41,635 nucleotides of DNA. It comes from Candidatus Cloacimonadota bacterium. Lineage in GTDB: Bacteria > Cloacimonadota > Cloacimonadia > Cloacimonadales > JAMOQM01. The translations under genes were made by a program, and so were the position numbers. Location of the stretch: the NCBI GenBank assembly GCA_027064005.1, contig JAMOQM010000091.1, positions 1 through 41,635 on the forward strand, given 5' to 3'. The notes beneath the pieces were generated by a model. It was given only the letters and a program-made list of their open reading frames with translations. It had not been told where the DNA came from and searched no databases. Below, piece by piece: positions 4,123 to 40,279 of the stretch (positions are counted from its first letter, which is position 1; every line of letters begins with the position of its first letter).

Positions 4123-5010
4123 TTGTTTGAACAAGAGTATTATGAAGTAAGAAAAAAGATGTTGGAAAAAGCTTTAGACAGATATTTAACTCCTAAAAAT
4201 GTATATCCGAATGAGTTGCATGAAGCGATGAGATACAGCATTTTTTCTGAAGGAAAAAGATTAAGACCTTTTTTGATGTTCGCAGCTTTTGAAATGCTTA
4301 AAGGCAAAAAAAGCGTTAAAAGTTTAAAAAATATCGTCCCGGCAGCGTGTGCAATTGAAATGGTACACACCGCATCATTAATTCATGATGATTTGCCGAG
4401 CATTGATAATTCAGATGAGAGAAGAGGTAAGAAAAGTTGCCACGTTAAATTTGGAGTTCCAACTGCTTTATTAGCCGGAGACGCACTGTTGACAAAAGCT
4501 TTTGAAGTTTTAACAGATGTTTTACCAAAATTTAAAGCAATTGAATGTATTACTGCCTTTACAAATTCCGTTTCAACTCGTGGAATGATTGCCGGTCAAA
4601 CTGTTGACATAACTTCTACAAATAAAAGAATAAATGTTAATATCTTAAAATATATCCATTTGAAAAAAACCGGTGCTTTGCTGCAATTAGCTATGGATAT
4701 CGCTTGTATAATGTCAAATGCTGATGAAAATGTTCGAGCAACATTAGGAAATTTTGCCTTAAATGTTGGACTGGCTTACCAAATAATTGACGACATCCTC
4801 GATGAAATCGGTGGTTTTGAAGACCTTGGTAAAGAACCGGGTCAAGATTTAAAAAACAAAAAAGCTACTTATCCAGGATTGATCGGATTGGAAAAATCTA
4901 AAAAAGAAGCTGAAAAATTATTAAATTCGGCATTTAAAATGATTAAGGGATTTCCTAACAATGATGTTCTCTTAGAATTCGTACAAACTATTAAGGATAG
5001 ATTACCATAA
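4123..5010 (+). CDS. Polyprenyl diphosphate synthase, probably geranylgeranyl diphosphate synthase
   Basis: A 295-residue trans-prenyltransferase of the IspA/CrtE family, cytosolic and all-helical. GKRLRPF (44-50) binds isopentenyl diphosphate. The first aspartate-rich motif is DDLPSID (89-95) with the two-residue insertion of bacterial enzymes, followed by RRG (100-102). The second is QIIDDILDE (220-228). The residue five before the first Asp is Ala84. In this family a small residue there usually allows a C20 product, whereas farnesyl synthases carry a bulky aromatic residue, so geranylgeranyl diphosphate is likelier than farnesyl. It starts with TTG after AGAGAGG. It lies one base from the UbiA gene, so its product is the probable prenyl donor for that enzyme. 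Chain length is an inference. Confidence 0.88.
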   Translation: MFEQEYYEVRKKMLEKALDRYLTPKNVYPNELHEAMRYSIFSEGKRLRPFLMFAAFEMLKGKKSVKSLKNIVPAACAIEMVHTASLIHDDLPSIDNSDERRGKKSCHVKFGVPTALLAGDALLTKAFEVLTDVLPKFKAIECITAFTNSVSTRGMIAGQTVDITSTNKRINVNILKYIHLKKTGALLQLAMDIACIMSNADENVRATLGNFALNVGLAYQIIDDILDEIGGFEDLGKEPGQDLKNKKATYPGLIGLEKSKKEAEKLLNSAFKMIKGFPNNDVLLEFVQTIKDRLP

Positions 5011-5011
5011 A

Positions 5012-5842
5012 TTGAAAGCTTATTTTGAAATAATTAGACCTTTTAATACAATATTTGTAGCACTGACAATTTTGTTCGGTGCTTTTTTTCATTCACATAA
5101 TTATTCAATATATGCGATTATTTTTGCTATTTTTTCAGCTGGTTTCATATCGGCAGCCGGATATGTAATTAATGATTTTTATGATTTGCAAATTGATAAG
5201 ATTAATCGACCTGACAGAGTTTTACCATCAAATAGAATGCGACCGAAGGTTGCTTTTTGGTATGCAATAATTTTGTTATTTTTGGGAATTATCTTCGGTT
5301 TTCTTACCCAAAAATCAGGTTGTATATTTCTCGCATTATTGAATTCATTTTTGATGTTTTATTATGCAAAATCTTTAAAAAAGAAATTTTTATTTGGGAA
5401 TTTAGTTGTTGCTTACGCAGCAGGTTCAGCTTTTATTTTTGGAGCTATATCTAATTCTAATTTAAAAAATGTTTTTGTTGTTTCTATTGTTGCTTTTTTA
5501 TATACTTTAGTTAGAGAAATCGTTAAAGATATGGAAGATGTTGAAGGCGACATAAAAGAGAATTCTTCAACTTTACCAATTATTTTAGGGAAAAAAGTAG
5601 CAGCATATTTAACGATAATTCCGATCTTAATGATATTTTTTTTCCTAAATTATAAGTTTATTTTTCATGGACTTAATATTTATAAAATTGTCATAAATCC
5701 ATTTAATTATATTGTAACGTTACCACTTTTAATCCTATTTTTTTTATATTCCAATAATTTAAAAGCAAAATTTCTTCATAAGATTTCTTTGATCATGAAA
5801 TTGGATATGTTACTATACCTTGTCGGAGTTTGGTTTATTTAG
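5012..5842 (+). CDS. UbiA-family prenyltransferase, digeranylgeranylglyceryl phosphate synthase-like
   Basis: 276 residues with about eight membrane helices. Both UbiA aspartate motifs are present: NDFYDLQID (54-62) and KDMEDVEGD (172-180). The flanks KINRPDRVLPSNR (63-75) and REIVKDMEDVEGD (168-180) match archaeal (S)-2,3-di-O-geranylgeranylglyceryl phosphate synthase much better than MenA, UbiA or heme O synthase as I know them. That enzyme adds the second geranylgeranyl ether chain to glycerol phosphate. The enzyme for the first chain (GGGP synthase) is not in the window. FCB bacteria, including Cloacimonadota, are known to carry archaeal-type GGGPS/DGGGPS genes. The start is TTG, one base after the prenyl synthase stop, with AAGGAT upstream. 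Alternative: a prenyltransferase of quinone or chlorophyll-like metabolism. Confidence 0.8.
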   Translation: MKAYFEIIRPFNTIFVALTILFGAFFHSHNYSIYAIIFAIFSAGFISAAGYVINDFYDLQIDKINRPDRVLPSNRMRPKVAFWYAIILLFLGIIFGFLTQKSGCIFLALLNSFLMFYYAKSLKKKFLFGNLVVAYAAGSAFIFGAISNSNLKNVFVVSIVAFLYTLVREIVKDMEDVEGDIKENSSTLPIILGKKVAAYLTIIPILMIFFFLNYKFIFHGLNIYKIVINPFNYIVTLPLLILFFLYSNNLKAKFLHKISLIMKLDMLLYLVGVWFI

Positions 5843-35923: not shown

Positions 35924-36928
35924 TTATTTTCCGAAAGAAATAGTGGCGATATATTGGTTATTGTTAATTAACCACTTGTTATTTATTATCGCAATATCAA
36001 TCTTAAAAGATTTAATCATATAAGATGTTCCAAAAGTGAAAAAAATATCCTCTTGAGATTTAAAATCTTTACTGTAACAACCGGTTCTAAAATTGACAGT
36101 TGATGCTTTTCTTTTAATAATTTTTTCATATCCGAAATGATATTCTTTTTTTGTTTTAATTTGAGCTTTCTGTAAAATGGAAACGTAAAATAATGAATTT
36201 TCCGTATTTTTTTGAACACCGTAAGAAACGCGTTTTGTAAGATTTTTATTCGAAGAATTTTCCCAATAAATTTTACTTAACAAATCATAAAAACTAACCC
36301 CGGCAAGAATATTGCCTTTTTTATAAATTCCACTAAAATCCAGAGAGAAACCTTTTGCTTTATCATCAAAAAAAGATTCCGTTTGCCAATTATTTTCATT
36401 CAATTCTTGATTGAGATTTACCAATCTTCCGTAAAGATATTTACAAGTTAATCCGAAAATATAATTTTTTTGTTTTTCTGAAATTGCAAGCTGAAAAGAA
36501 TTCAAAGTAAAATCTTTATATGATTTATGTAAAGAATCCGACATAGTATTCTCATGTTTATCAACTATTGGAAAGTAAAGCATACTTCCTTTCGGAGCGG
36601 ACATACCAATTCCCAAAACATGTCCTTTTTGAACAAAATTCAGAATATGTATTGATTGATAAATCGATTCGGGAGATTTAGGAGAATATTTATAGGAAAT
36701 ACCCACATTTTCTTTCTCGACCAAACCTAATGATGCGGAATTGAAATAAGCGGTAAACGGATCTCCCGCACTATAAATTGGATTACCACCCATTCCTGAA
36801 GCAATCGCAGATACCGGTGCTAAAGAGGTGTGAAAATCATAATTTATTTTGGGAAATGCCATAACTATTGAATAAATGGTAACAAAGGTTAAAACAAAAA
36901 GCAACCTATTAAACTTTAGATTTTTCAT
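35924..36928 (-). CDS. PorV/FadL-like outer membrane beta-barrel protein
   Basis: 334 residues from ATG 36928 (MKNLKFNRLLFVLTFVTIYS), which gives a clean signal peptide to about residue 24. An ATG at 36949 is the alternative, and GAGGAG lies 13 bases before 36928, so the start is uncertain. The mature part opens with the PorV/UPF0164-type ASGMGGNPIYSAGDPFTAYF plus NSASLGLV, where the family has AmGGA...D..A.f.NPA.L. Alternating hydrophobic strands run to the end (IDIAIINNKWLI, YIATISFGK), as expected for a barrel. Roles in this family range from type IX secretion to hydrophobic compound uptake. It overlaps the PAP2 gene by 20 bases. Confidence 0.7.
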   Translation of the reverse strand: MKNLKFNRLLFVLTFVTIYSIVMAFPKINYDFHTSLAPVSAIASGMGGNPIYSAGDPFTAYFNSASLGLVEKENVGISYKYSPKSPESIYQSIHILNFVQKGHVLGIGMSAPKGSMLYFPIVDKHENTMSDSLHKSYKDFTLNSFQLAISEKQKNYIFGLTCKYLYGRLVNLNQELNENNWQTESFFDDKAKGFSLDFSGIYKKGNILAGVSFYDLLSKIYWENSSNKNLTKRVSYGVQKNTENSLFYVSILQKAQIKTKKEYHFGYEKIIKRKASTVNFRTGCYSKDFKSQEDIFFTFGTSYMIKSFKIDIAIINNKWLINNNQYIATISFGK

Positions 36929-37829
36929 AAGAAATTTTTTTCTCCTCATAATATTTTATTCTGAAAATATTTTCCAATTTTGAATACAGTTTGAATGAAA
37001 GAGGATAAAAAATAATTACATATAAAATACCCCCAAGTACATCCGTAAAATAATGATAATGACAATAAACTGTTGCAATTGACAAAAGAAGCGTAATTGG
37101 AATAAACACAAAACCTAACTTCTTCTCATATTTCAAAGCGGAAAGCATCAAAACTAAGGCAATCGCAACATGAGAACTGGGAAAAGCCCCCCCAAGATGC
37201 GGACTGTGAATATATATTTCCGCCATAATTTTTGTAAAAATTCCATATCTTAAAGTTTTTGCTAATTCCATTGCCTCAGGATAGAATCTCCCGCCGATTA
37301 CCGGCAGAATTACATAAGTTAAAAAACAAATATAAAAAACAAAACTTAGTGTGAAAATAAATTCTCCCAAATATTCATATTTCCTTTTTACAAACAAAGT
37401 TATTGCTAAAATAAAAAACATTAGATAGTAGGAAAAATAAGAAAAATGAAATAACTCCTGAAGGAAAAAAGTATCAAAATGAGTTCCCCAATAAAGAGTA
37501 GGCTGATATCCAAAAATAGAAAAATCAATTTTTTGAAAAAAACCATCAATATAATCATGAAAAATAAGCAAATTCAAATGTGAAACAGATTCAAAAAAAT
37601 ATCCGTATAGCACTAACGGATAAGACAATCTTAAGAAAAAAACAAACTTACTTTTGGGAAATTTTCCGTGTAAATAGGTTAAACCCAAAATTAAAATGAT
37701 AATCGAAAAATGAAGTAGAATTTGACGCAAAGGATGCTCAATTCTACTCCAACCGTAAATAATAAAACAATCAATTATACTTGCATAAATTAAAGTTATG
37801 GTATCAACAGGGTTTAACTTTTTAATCAT
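36909..37829 (-). CDS. PAP2-family membrane enzyme, Aur1/inositol phosphotransferase-like
   Basis: 306 residues with about eight helices. The PAP2 motifs are GGAFPSSHVA (213-222, His220) and YCHYHYFTDVLGG (255-267, with His259 and Asp263). GGRFYPEAMELA (179-190) precedes them at the lumenal side. This spacing and the PSSH/HYxxD wording fit the PAP2_3 group that includes yeast Aur1 and bacterial inositol-phosphoceramide or phosphatidylinositol-type synthases more than undecaprenyl phosphatase. It would move a phospho-headgroup between lipids on the outer face of the inner membrane. It overlaps the YghO-like gene by four bases (ATGA). Simple lipid phosphatase activity is the alternative. Confidence 0.78.
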   Translation of the reverse strand: MIKKLNPVDTITLIYASIIDCFIIYGWSRIEHPLRQILLHFSIIILILGLTYLHGKFPKSKFVFFLRLSYPLVLYGYFFESVSHLNLLIFHDYIDGFFQKIDFSIFGYQPTLYWGTHFDTFFLQELFHFSYFSYYLMFFILAITLFVKRKYEYLGEFIFTLSFVFYICFLTYVILPVIGGRFYPEAMELAKTLRYGIFTKIMAEIYIHSPHLGGAFPSSHVAIALVLMLSALKYEKKLGFVFIPITLLLSIATVYCHYHYFTDVLGGILYVIIFYPLSFKLYSKLENIFRIKYYEEKKISYEKSKV

Positions 37830-38932
37830 ATTTCTTTATCATAAATTCTATAACGTTTGTAAGGCTCAGCTCCAAGCATTTCGGCGATTCTATTCATCAT
37901 TAAATTAGTTTCCAAAATCCAAGATAACTCACCACCCCAAAGACCTTTTTTACGACAAGTTTCAAATGTTTTATAGTAAAAAGCGGCATCAATTCCACGT
38001 TTTTGATATTCGTGAACAACACCCATTGTTATAACTCTAACCGTAGGGATTTTTGATTTGTAATATAGAGCTTTTGCTAAACTAATCGGATTCATATGAC
38101 CGTTCATCTTTTTCAAAACAAAGTTAAAATTAGGCAGTGCCACAGAAAAGCCAACAGGTTTTCCGTCTGCAAAAGCAAGATAAACTAATTCCGAATCAAC
38201 AACAGGAAGCAAATCTTTAACTGTTTGATCAAATTCCTCGCGAGTATCGGGAACAAATCCCCAATTTTTTTCCCAAGCTTTAGAATAGATTTCAAAAACA
38301 AGTTCAATATCTCTCTTGAGATTTTTTTTATCAAGACACCGGATTTCAAAGCTATTTTTTTTCATAGCTAATTTAGCTATTCTATCTAATTTAGGAGGAA
38401 TAGGATCCGATTTTAAAAGATATGCTAACAAATCCATAGATTTTTTATATCCGGATTTTTTTATCAAAGCATCATAATAGCTAAAATTGTGAGTCATCAT
38501 TATATATGGTGGTGTCTCAAACCCGTCAACCAATGTCCCGCACTCATTATTTACAGAGAAATTCATCGGACCGCGAAGTGTATCCATACCCTTATTTTTA
38601 TTCCAATCTTCGGCTGCTTTTAAAATACCATTAGCGACTTCTTCATCGTCAATAGATTCAAAAAAACCAAAAAATCCGACTTTATCATTATGGAAATTAT
38701 TGTGTTGAGTATTTGTTTGAGCGGAAATTCTACCAACCGGTTTACCGTCTTTATATGCTAAAAAAAGTTGTACTTCCGAATGTCGGTAATATGGATTTTT
38801 CTCCGGATTAAAAAACTTTTTTTGATCACTCAATAGTGGCGGTACCCAAAGTTCATAATTTTTGTATAATTCATAAGGTAATTTTATAAAGGCATTTAGT
38901 TCTTTTTTAGTTACAACTTTTCTAATTTCCAT
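37826..38932 (-). CDS. YghO-like GNAT-fold acyltransferase
   Basis: 368 residues, soluble. The N-terminal part reads ELYKNYELWVPPLLSDQKKF, PYYRHSEVQLFLAYKDGKPV, VGFFGFFESIDD, then LRGPMNFSVNNECGTLVDGF and PPYIMMTHNFSYYDALI, the wording of the YghO family. The second half is a GNAT-like domain (ELVYLAFADGKPVGFSVALP; MGVVHEYQKRGIDAAFYYKT, with the Q-x-x-G-I-x acyl-CoA loop). I recall that the bacterial ceramide synthase of Caulobacter belongs to this broad family, so an acyl transfer onto a lipid amine is plausible. The AGGAGA site overlaps the end of plsY by the TAATG junction. Confidence 0.75.
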   Translation of the reverse strand: MEIRKVVTKKELNAFIKLPYELYKNYELWVPPLLSDQKKFFNPEKNPYYRHSEVQLFLAYKDGKPVGRISAQTNTQHNNFHNDKVGFFGFFESIDDEEVANGILKAAEDWNKNKGMDTLRGPMNFSVNNECGTLVDGFETPPYIMMTHNFSYYDALIKKSGYKKSMDLLAYLLKSDPIPPKLDRIAKLAMKKNSFEIRCLDKKNLKRDIELVFEIYSKAWEKNWGFVPDTREEFDQTVKDLLPVVDSELVYLAFADGKPVGFSVALPNFNFVLKKMNGHMNPISLAKALYYKSKIPTVRVITMGVVHEYQKRGIDAAFYYKTFETCRKKGLWGGELSWILETNLMMNRIAEMLGAEPYKRYRIYDKEI

Positions 38933-39552
38933 TATATCTCTCCTAATTTTTTTGATACTATAATATTTACTACTCCCATTAAAAATGCTGCGATTAATAA
39001 CTTGGTCAAAAAGACAGAATTATAATCAGAGAAATATACAGGGAAAAATGAGATGCAAAAATGTGCAACTATCGAAGGTAAAAGAACAATCATATATTGA
39101 GCAAATCTAACTTGTTTGAAAAAGATGACAACAAGCCCGGCAAAAAACGCAACAATTAGGGTCGGTAAAAAGGCAAAATAAGATATTAACCCAATGTAAG
39201 TAAATAATCCACGCCCACCTTTAAATTTATGATTCACCGGTAAACAATGTCCTAATAACATCATAAACCCAAAAGCTAAAAGATAATTTTCATAGTTTAT
39301 CCCCGGGAAAAATTCTCTTAGCAAAACATTCAATAACATTAAATATAAATAAACTTTTAGGAAATCAATTGCTCCGGCAAGAATACCAAGCGATTTACTT
39401 ACATTATGAAACAAATTCTCAGTGTCAGGATGACCTGTCCCGACCTTATATAAATTTAAAGATTTAAAACTCTTCGCTAAAATTATACAAGTTGAAAATC
39501 CCCCGATCAGATAAGAAATAAGTCCAATACCAACAGCGATAAATATATTCAT
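38932..39552 (-). CDS. plsY: Divergent PlsY-family glycerol-3-phosphate acyltransferase
   Basis: 206 residues with about five helices. GGFSTCIILAKSFKSLNL opens as in PlsY, followed by VGTGHPDTENLFHNVSKSLG (37-56) where the family has GSGN-x-G-x-TN, then GHCLPVNHKFKGGRGLFTYI (101-120), the G-KGGKG acyl-phosphate motif with K to R. PlsY makes lysophosphatidate from acyl-phosphate and glycerol 3-phosphate in the inner membrane. The altered first motif raises the chance of a changed substrate. AGGAGG precedes the ATG; it starts directly after yggS and overlaps the YghO-like gene by one base. Confidence 0.78.
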   Translation of the reverse strand: MNIFIAVGIGLISYLIGGFSTCIILAKSFKSLNLYKVGTGHPDTENLFHNVSKSLGILAGAIDFLKVYLYLMLLNVLLREFFPGINYENYLLAFGFMMLLGHCLPVNHKFKGGRGLFTYIGLISYFAFLPTLIVAFFAGLVVIFFKQVRFAQYMIVLLPSIVAHFCISFFPVYFSDYNSVFLTKLLIAAFLMGVVNIIVSKKLGEI

Positions 39553-40260
39553 CTAATCCTCCTTACCATAATTTCTATAACCAAACAAACTACTCCCGAT
39601 TCTAACCATATTTGAACCTTCTTCAATAGCTATTTCAAAATCATTACTCATTCCCATAGATAAATATTTCATCTCCAATTCTTGATATTTTTTAGTTTTA
39701 ATCCGTTCGGAAATTTTCCACAATAAACTAAAACATCGCCTAATTTCTTGTTCGTCTTTTGTAATTGTTCCGATTGTCATTAATCCTTTGATTTTTATGG
39801 AAGGAATTTCAAGAGCTTTGTCTAAAAAATAATAAATCTCATCCGGACTAATTCCTGATTTTGATTCTTCTCCTGAAGTATTTATTTGAATCAAAACATC
39901 TTGTTTAAAATCATTTCTACTCGAGTAATTGCTAATCTTCTCTAAAGTTGAAATTTTATCAATGGAATGAATTAGAGTTGGTCTGAATTTCATTAATTTA
40001 TTTACTTTGTTAGATTGTAAATGCCCGATAAAATGAAATTCTCGGTACTTATTTTTTAGCTTAGGAAATTTTTTTTCCACTTCTTGGACTTTGTTTTCAC
40101 CGATAATATCAAGACCTAAATTAATTGCCTCATCCAATAATTCTACCGGATGGGTTTTCGTTACGGCAACCAATTTTACATCTTTAGAATTAACTCCTGC
40201 TTTTTCTGAAGATTTCAGAATTTTTTCTCTAATTATTTCTATTCTTTGTGATAAATTCAT
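39553..40260 (-). CDS. YggS-family pyridoxal phosphate homeostasis protein
   Basis: 235 residues from ATG 40260 (MNLSQRIEII), five bases after AGAGG; a GTG at 40266 is the alternative. It is a single alanine-racemase-type barrel with the Schiff-base lysine in VAVTKTHP (Lys35), then IGENKVQEV, FHFIGHLQSNKV, IHSIDKI, QINTSGEESKSGI, GLMTIG and SMGMSNDFEIAIEEGSNMVRIGSSLFG, all standard for YggS/PLPBP. It binds PLP without known catalysis and buffers the cofactor. It is the first gene of the long minus cluster. Confidence 0.93.
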   Translation of the reverse strand: MNLSQRIEIIREKILKSSEKAGVNSKDVKLVAVTKTHPVELLDEAINLGLDIIGENKVQEVEKKFPKLKNKYREFHFIGHLQSNKVNKLMKFRPTLIHSIDKISTLEKISNYSSRNDFKQDVLIQINTSGEESKSGISPDEIYYFLDKALEIPSIKIKGLMTIGTITKDEQEIRRCFSLLWKISERIKTKKYQELEMKYLSMGMSNDFEIAIEEGSNMVRIGSSLFGYRNYGKED

Positions 40261-40279
40261 ACTCACCTCTTTTTTAAAA

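Follow-up and report, generated by a model that had tools for sequence, protein, structure and literature searches.

What does a compact cluster of a PlsY-like gene, a YghO-like acyltransferase gene and an Aur1-like PAP2 gene do in a member of the Cloacimonadota? We addressed this question for contig JAMOQM010000091.1 of Candidatus Cloacimonadota bacterium (assembly GCA_027064005.1, positions 1 to 41,635 of the forward strand). This whole stretch of 41,635 nucleotides is called the window; in our numbering it is contig C91 of genome G000. A sequence-only reading had proposed that the cluster acylates a sphingoid-like amine and transfers a phospho-headgroup. At the gene level this proposal is supported by homologues of serine palmitoyltransferase (SPT) and ceramide reductase (CerR) in the same genome, by acyltransferase trees and by a match of the PAP2 protein to Aur1; we infer every reaction discussed below from the presence, kinship, order and predicted folds of the genes. 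Overall, the three genes form a genuine module, and at the gene level there is good support for its sphingolipid reading. We see it as a known pathway in rearranged form, with a conserved candidate for the head-group step, and not as a system of a new kind. The locus probably contributes two steps to a bacterial sphingolipid pathway that, in Cloacimonadota, has its genes dispersed.

The three-gene operon and its acyltransferase

Open reading frame (ORF) calling on the window gives three overlapping minus-strand frames, running from the PlsY-like gene through the acyltransferase gene to the PAP2 gene, with a conserved neighbor on either side:

37826-38932, minus strand: YghO/Aca-type tandem-GNAT acyltransferase of 368 aa, candidate bacterial ceramide synthase (bCerS) (weak PF00583 match, 26.8 bits; trees; predicted fold)
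36909-37829, minus strand: Aur1-like PAP2 membrane enzyme of 306 aa, candidate ceramide phospho-headgroup transferase (PAP2_3, 57.2 bits; AUR1 profile match; model)
38932-39552, minus strand: PlsY2, a divergent PlsY paralogue of 206 aa, first of the overlapping trio (PF02660, 79.6 bits)
39553-40266, minus strand: YggS-family pyridoxal phosphate protein, probably housekeeping, a conserved neighbor (TIGR00044, 191.5 bits; conserved order)
35924-36949, minus strand: PorV/PorQ-like protein, a conserved downstream neighbor (NF033709, 33.2 bits against a cut-off of 90)

The PlsY2 and acyltransferase genes share one base (TAATG) and the acyltransferase and PAP2 genes share four (ATGA); the three-gene arrangement stands where the sequence-only reading had placed it, four-base overlap included. 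YggS lies directly upstream of PlsY2 (gap of 0 nt), and the PorV/PorQ-like frame overlaps the end of the PAP2 gene. Across a survey of 58 genomes of the order Cloacimonadales (the window's own and 57 relatives), 35 of the 40 PAP2-bearing genomes have this gene no more than 300 nt from the acyltransferase gene and on the same strand, and the order YggS-PlsY-GNAT-PAP2-PorV was found again in many relatives. Given this adjacency and recurring order, the pairing of acyltransferase and PAP2 is more than chance. A promoter/terminator scan gave counts that match those of shuffles (39 versus 38.6; 4 versus 3.8), and NCBIfam has a model for neither the acyltransferase nor the PAP2 protein.

Reference acyltransferases for phylogenetic analysis were annotated records with an acyltransferase near an SPT gene, from Rahnella, E. 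coli (yghO), Roseomonas, Aureispira, Streptomyces, Rubrobacter, Sphingomonas, Pseudomonas and Acidisoma. The first of two trees held 75 proteins; its Cloacimonadota clade, here type A, comprised 34 rows (support 100/99), with the SPT-adjacent Aureispira and Rubrobacter proteins nearest to it (85/84). A branch of length 1.43 (100/100) split off a type B, whose members are a second copy from the window's genome (G000:C85), proteins of Bacteroides, Phocaeicola and Prevotella, and one Chloroflexota protein. When SPT-adjacent homologues from other phyla were added (second tree, 78 proteins), a 100/100 branch parted 68 rows, including the window protein and all 38 SPT-linked ones, from 10 type-B rows; E. 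coli YghO stands on the SPT-linked side. Support for the inner order of this second tree is weak, and some rows have long branches. The window acyltransferase is placed in the SPT-linked branch by both trees, in agreement with the bCerS-family membership that had been proposed for it.

The available text of PMC9386255 equates E. coli BL21 yghO (ECD_02850) with Caulobacter CC_1154, or aca, which is needed for dihydroceramide synthesis. The window protein, 38% identical to E. coli YghO, shares with these bCerS/Aca proteins the YghO-type tandem GNAT branch and a genome that also encodes SPT and CerR. Unlike theirs, its gene lies away from SPT and CerR, flanked by the genes for a PlsY paralogue and for an Aur1-like PAP2 protein.

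A structural model of the acyltransferase (mean pLDDT, the predicted local confidence score, 89.7) has a predicted tandem GNAT fold. Its best matches are MAB_4324 (Z 24.2 over 302 residues), a glucosamine N-acetyltransferase (Z 22.6) and mycothiol synthase (Z 21.6), while N-myristoyltransferases, which use long acyl-CoA, rank later (Z ~15). The predicted fold agrees with an N-acyltransferase, although the fold alone does not give the substrate. Searching solved structures with the single acyltransferase sequence returned only vinculin noise; searching by profile returned weak GNATs.

Other YghO-type genes differ in setting. The type-B gene of the window's genome (L039 3681-4802) encodes a protein that shares ~51-52% identity with proteins of Bacteroides and Chloroflexota, and its neighbors are a radical SAM gene and a gene resembling a TetR regulator. 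A type C, found in seven surveyed genomes (G015, G025, G029, G033, G035, G039, G050), is a fast-evolving tandem copy directly upstream of type A in family f8 (L050 6733-7936, L051 870-2049, L052 7053-8229); the PAP2 gene is absent from all of these genomes except G035. E. coli K-12 carries an IS5 copy on the 5' side of yghO (L089 14044-16341), and in another E. coli record yghO is still beside genes for SPT-like, acyl carrier protein (ACP), epimerase and acyl-AMP ligase proteins.

SPT, CerR, PlsY2 and the distribution of the genes

The sequence-only reading had pointed to SPT and a ceramide reductase as genes to seek elsewhere in the genome, and homologues of both are present. Neither of the two outcomes that it had named as refuting, a genome without SPT and an acyltransferase outside the bCerS branch, was obtained. 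The SPT homologue (G000:C2:4242-5417, 392 aa) matches NF047600 (SerpalmtaseCFB) with 590.4 bits, the top of 11 NCBIfam models, the next of which scores 404 (186 bits lower). Its best PDB match is SPT of Sphingobacterium multivorum at 449.9 bits, followed by another molecule at 294; the species name of the best entries is consistent with PMC10196870. The enzyme is 42-60% identical to the SPTs that adjoin clade-A GNATs in other phyla. The CerR homologue (G000:C124:12416-13381) scores 227 bits against a profile built from one alignment of six reductases of SPT clusters, and the next hits in the genome score 84 and 83 bits. The genes are thus dispersed, with the GNAT on C91, SPT on C2 and CerR on C124. 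A KBL-like protein on C114 was ruled out as SPT because KBL models and structures rank first for it; it belongs to a row of an SDR-type dehydrogenase, a holo-ACP synthase and this KBL-like alpha-oxoamine synthase (L045 4440-7002), of which the first two overlap by 1 base.

The product could instead be a relative of the sphingolipids, a 1-deoxyceramide (alanine for serine) or a sulfonolipid, with the GNAT acylating that base. In its available text, PMC11334938 describes 1-deoxyceramides from euxinic water, along with sulfur-containing ones, and states that Spt can use alanine. However, the enzyme on C2 reaches 450 bits to SPT against 242 to cysteate-C-fatty acyltransferase, and on a base that lacks the C1 hydroxyl an Aur1-like enzyme would have no acceptor. 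We regard such a product as improbable.

Neighborhoods were counted for the best 80 acyltransferase loci of a genome scan, 36 of them titled Cloacimonadota or one of its named genera and 44 titled otherwise; the fractions omit loci with no kept GNAT ORF (2/44 and 2/36, respectively), and L162, an Armatimonadota record by title whose gene order is that of Cloacimonadota, was counted among the other titles. In those other phyla, 29 of 42 loci have a same-strand SPT gene no more than 3 ORFs away, 23 have CerR within 3 ORFs, and 34 have one or the other; PAP2 is present in 10, jointly with SPT in 7. Contiguous SPT-GNAT-CerR-PAP2 genes occur in L172 (Sumerlaeota), L179 (KSB1), L182 and L187 (Acidobacteria) and L185 (Latescibacterota, where the contig end truncates SPT), and L211, titled Bacteroidetes, has GNAT-CerR-PAP2. 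The Cloacimonadota loci carry PlsY2 in 31 of 34 and PAP2 in 22 of 34, with SPT or CerR near the acyltransferase in none of the 34. These counts indicate that the window gene is of the same kind as the SPT-linked homologues, yet stands apart from SPT in Cloacimonadota.

An earlier survey bears on this separation. According to the available text of PMC11334938, the only paper that our literature search on Cloacimonadota and ceramide turned up, work of 2024 detected Spt-like genes in 33 metagenome-assembled genomes (MAGs) of Cloacimonadota, none of which had bCerS/CerR within 10 ORFs, and co-localization of bCerS/CerR with Spt is not required. The same text asks whether the sphingolipid genes were rearranged or replaced by unrelated ones. 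The locus supports rearrangement, since the genome has relatives of both bCerS and CerR, the former within its own conserved PlsY2-bCerS-PAP2 operon.

The claim that the pair lies next to plsY holds in part: a PlsY-family gene adjoins it, but the housekeeping copy sits elsewhere and the operon copy is a divergent paralogue. Canonical PlsY (>170 bits) is present in 53 of the 58 genomes, the window genome's own copy being on C80 (183 bits); the operon PlsY (78.5 bits) is therefore a second, divergent copy. PlsY2 scores 53.9 bits against TIGR00023, short of the equivalog cut-off of 137.2. Compared with PlsY of Aquifex aeolicus (5xj5), it shares the PF02660 family and reaches 38.6 bits to this solved enzyme but has changed motifs, GSGNVGATN becoming GTGHPDTEN and FKGGKGV becoming FKGGRGL; we take the altered regions to correspond to the PlsY active-site motifs. 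PlsY2 lies no more than 300 nt from the type-A acyltransferase in 34 of 46 genomes and no more than 1500 nt in 41 of 46, and its sequence suggests a putative acyltransferase of the acyl-phosphate type. The PlsY-family gene, together with the lack of a nearby SPT in all 34 Cloacimonadota loci, could mean that the operon serves glycerophospholipid metabolism and has nothing to do with sphingolipids. Given that this PlsY is a divergent second copy, and that orthologous GNATs of other phyla sit in SPT operons, some with PAP2, we consider that function very improbable.

Presence in the 58 genomes was scored with cut-offs of our own: at least 50% identity for type A, at least 68% for SPT, >150 bits for CerR and E <1e-5 for PAP2 (all at least 40% identity). 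Pieces at contig ends were counted as present (GNAT in G018 and G039; SPT in G027, G040 and G057; CerR in G047 and G056; PAP2 in G011 and G018). Type A was found in 46 genomes, SPT in 47, CerR in 47 and PAP2 in 40, and six genomes (families f2, f4, f5, f9, f11) lack all four. SPT and CerR occur together in 45 genomes, singly in 2 and 2, and neither in 9 (Fisher p 2.6e-7). For type A and SPT the counts are both 41, type A alone 5, SPT alone 6 and neither 6 (p 0.006), and for PAP2 and SPT they are both 36, PAP2 alone 4, SPT alone 11 and neither 7 (p 0.025). This co-occurrence is support, not proof.

Several observations weigh against the sphingolipid reading, beginning with the absence of SPT and CerR from the Cloacimonadota neighborhoods. 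The SPT homologue falls below the curated NF047600 cut-off (590.4 versus 640). Five genomes have type A without SPT (G002, G008, G023, G054, G056) and six have SPT without type A (G014, G017, G029, G046, G047, G053). Several exceptions are incomplete MAGs, but incompleteness does not explain G008, which is 100% complete and has type A, CerR and PAP2 without SPT, or the g18 genomes, in which SPT, CerR and PAP2 occur without type A. PAP2 is missing from 11 of the 47 SPT-bearing genomes and is therefore dispensable for whatever these make. Finally, in a phylogeny-aware test on a tree of RpoB fragments, which covered 56 genomes because two gave no RpoB match, independent pairs mostly went the same way but were too few for significance (same versus opposite: CerR/SPT 3.5 versus 0.0; type A/SPT 1.5 versus 0.0; SPT/PAP2 1.4 versus 0.8).

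The second YghO-type protein in the window's genome is a further point of this kind. If the type-B GNAT on C85 were the ceramide synthase, the window enzyme would do something else. Type B is the type found in records of Bacteroides, Phocaeicola and Prevotella, which carry SPT, and the four SPT-bearing g18 genomes without type A have type-B2 proteins. On the other hand, all 38 SPT-linked homologues side with type A, and type A is present in 41 of the 47 SPT-bearing genomes, many of which lack B or B2; we give the type-B assignment little credence. PlsY2 and PAP2 are adjacent in the absence of type A in four genomes (G017:C23, G046:C59, G047:C24, G053:C27) and with type A on another contig in a fifth (G040:C1). 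The type-B2 acyltransferase that these five carry is a possible replacement for type A.

The PAP2 protein and its candidate head group

All 26 aligned PAP2 homologues match Pfam PAP2_3 and PAP2, and 8 also match PAP2_C. The positions invariant across the 26 sequences include H220 (in an FPSSH motif), H259 and D263, which we take to be catalytic. Since the chemistry of the PAP2 superfamily is common to transferases and phosphatases, bCerS might be assigned correctly while the PAP2 protein is a lipid phosphatase acting on a ceramide phosphate, a sphingoid phosphate or another lipid phosphate. The lowest profile E-values do go to the phosphatase-side proteins YodM (5.8e-5) and LpxE (1e-4), ahead of AUR1 (5.6e-4). 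However, YodM and LpxE cover only the C-terminal part, from about position 219, whereas the AUR1 match covers profile positions 18-285. Structure comparison gives the same picture. The PAP2 model (mean pLDDT 95.7) aligns best with Aur1-Kei1 (9ivc; Z 19.0, root-mean-square deviation 4.1, 259 residues, 17% identity) and nearly as well with an inositol-phosphoceramide (IPC) synthase-ceramide complex (9vj4; Z 18.9, 258 residues), compared with Z 15.8 over 162 residues for LpxE and Z 11.8 over 201 residues for human SMSr, and Foldseek places two IPC synthase entries on top. LpxE and YodM miss the N-terminal helices, as their alignments begin at model residue 92 or 93; Aur1 covers these helices. Sequence and model together favor a transferase, with a phosphatase as a less likely but realistic alternative.

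The proposed likeness to IPC synthase therefore stands as far as the enzyme is concerned: the PAP2 protein shares with yeast Aur1/IPC synthase the PAP2_3 family, a similar fold over almost the full length and the His-His-Asp positions. The inositol head group does not stand with it. The window's genome gave 0 matches to myo-inositol-phosphate synthase (PF01658), a point of difference from Aur1 and Bacteroides BT_1522, and across the survey PF01658 occurs in 7 of 58 genomes against 40 for PAP2. Given this absence and rarity, inositol is unlikely as the common head group, and we rejected it as the leading candidate, although inositol might be taken up. BT_1522, the phosphatidylinositol (PI)-dihydroceramide synthase, was compared by description only; the window PAP2 gene differs from it in its linkage, which is to bCerS instead of a PI synthase cluster.

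Phosphatidylglycerol (PG) or phosphatidylethanolamine (PE) is a more likely donor than PI. PE is weak as a general donor across the order, as phosphatidylserine decarboxylase, present in the window's genome, occurs in only 9 of the 58. CDP-alcohol phosphatidyltransferases are found in 55 of 58 genomes, which fits PG and does not separate the donors.

Relatives in Bacteroidota bear on the same step. Bacteroides finegoldii (L278 4967-6930) has a CerR/KDSR-like reductase gene that overlaps a following Aur1-like PAP2 gene, whose product is the closest Bacteroides relative of the window protein (29% identity, 92% covered); the reductase is ~28-35% identical to SPT-linked CerRs. The same pair occurs in Prevotella (L281 5192-7201; PAP2 25% identical to the window protein). 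The pairing there is with the reductase, whereas in the window it is with bCerS. According to the available text of PMC9278070, BT_0972 of B. thetaiotaomicron is a tested 3-ketosphinganine reductase, to which the B. finegoldii reductase is presumably orthologous. From the text available of PMC9246714, the AUR1 homologue BT_1522 synthesizes PI-dihydroceramide, and in its deletion mutant PE-dihydroceramide is unaltered. The sequence evidence suggests that the reductase-paired PAP2 protein of Bacteroides is a candidate head-group enzyme distinct from BT_1522. The literature searched gave no function for the KDSR/CerR-PAP2 pair of B. finegoldii and Prevotella, and a search on ceramide phosphoethanolamine synthase, Bacteroides and PAP2 turned up no such bacterial assignment among the 10 listed of 47 matching papers.

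We tentatively suggest, at somewhat less than even confidence, that Aur1-like PAP2 proteins linked to bCerS (Cloacimonadota) or to CerR/KDSR (Sumerlaeota, KSB1, Acidobacteria, Latescibacterota, Bacteroidota) act generally in bacteria as ceramide head-group synthases, with PE or PG as the donor. If so, the Bacteroides relative beside the BT_0972-like reductase would make the phosphoethanolamine dihydroceramide that persists after BT_1522 deletion. The operon offers a candidate for the head-group step, for which the bacterial assignment in the literature searched is the inositol case.

PAP2 matches in three surveyed genomes run across one in-frame TAG within open frames of ~660 aa (G024:C13:21277-22161, G026:C10:35958-36839, G034:C4:26228-27106); gene overlap, fusion and a recoded stop are the options.

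Proposed pathway and ether-lipid context

In the pathway that we propose, SPT (C2) would form 3-ketosphinganine, the window bCerS would N-acylate this long-chain base in the cytoplasm, and CerR (C124) would reduce the keto group after acylation. The order of acylation before reduction comes from Caulobacter work, as given in the available text of PMC11087976. The Aur1-like PAP2 protein would then take a phospho-alcohol head group off a glycerophospholipid and place it on ceramide, with release of diacylglycerol, probably through a phospho-histidine intermediate.

The window also encodes a farnesyl/geranylgeranyl-type diphosphate synthase and a UbiA protein (4123-5839, plus strand). The best model for the latter is geranylgeranylglycerol-phosphate geranylgeranyltransferase, below its cut-off, and a PcrB/GGGPS homologue lies elsewhere in the genome (G000:C56:4620-5306, L277). 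These homologies point to a potential for archaeal-type ether lipids beside sphingolipids, and with both sets of synthesis genes in one genome the membrane could be unusually mixed.

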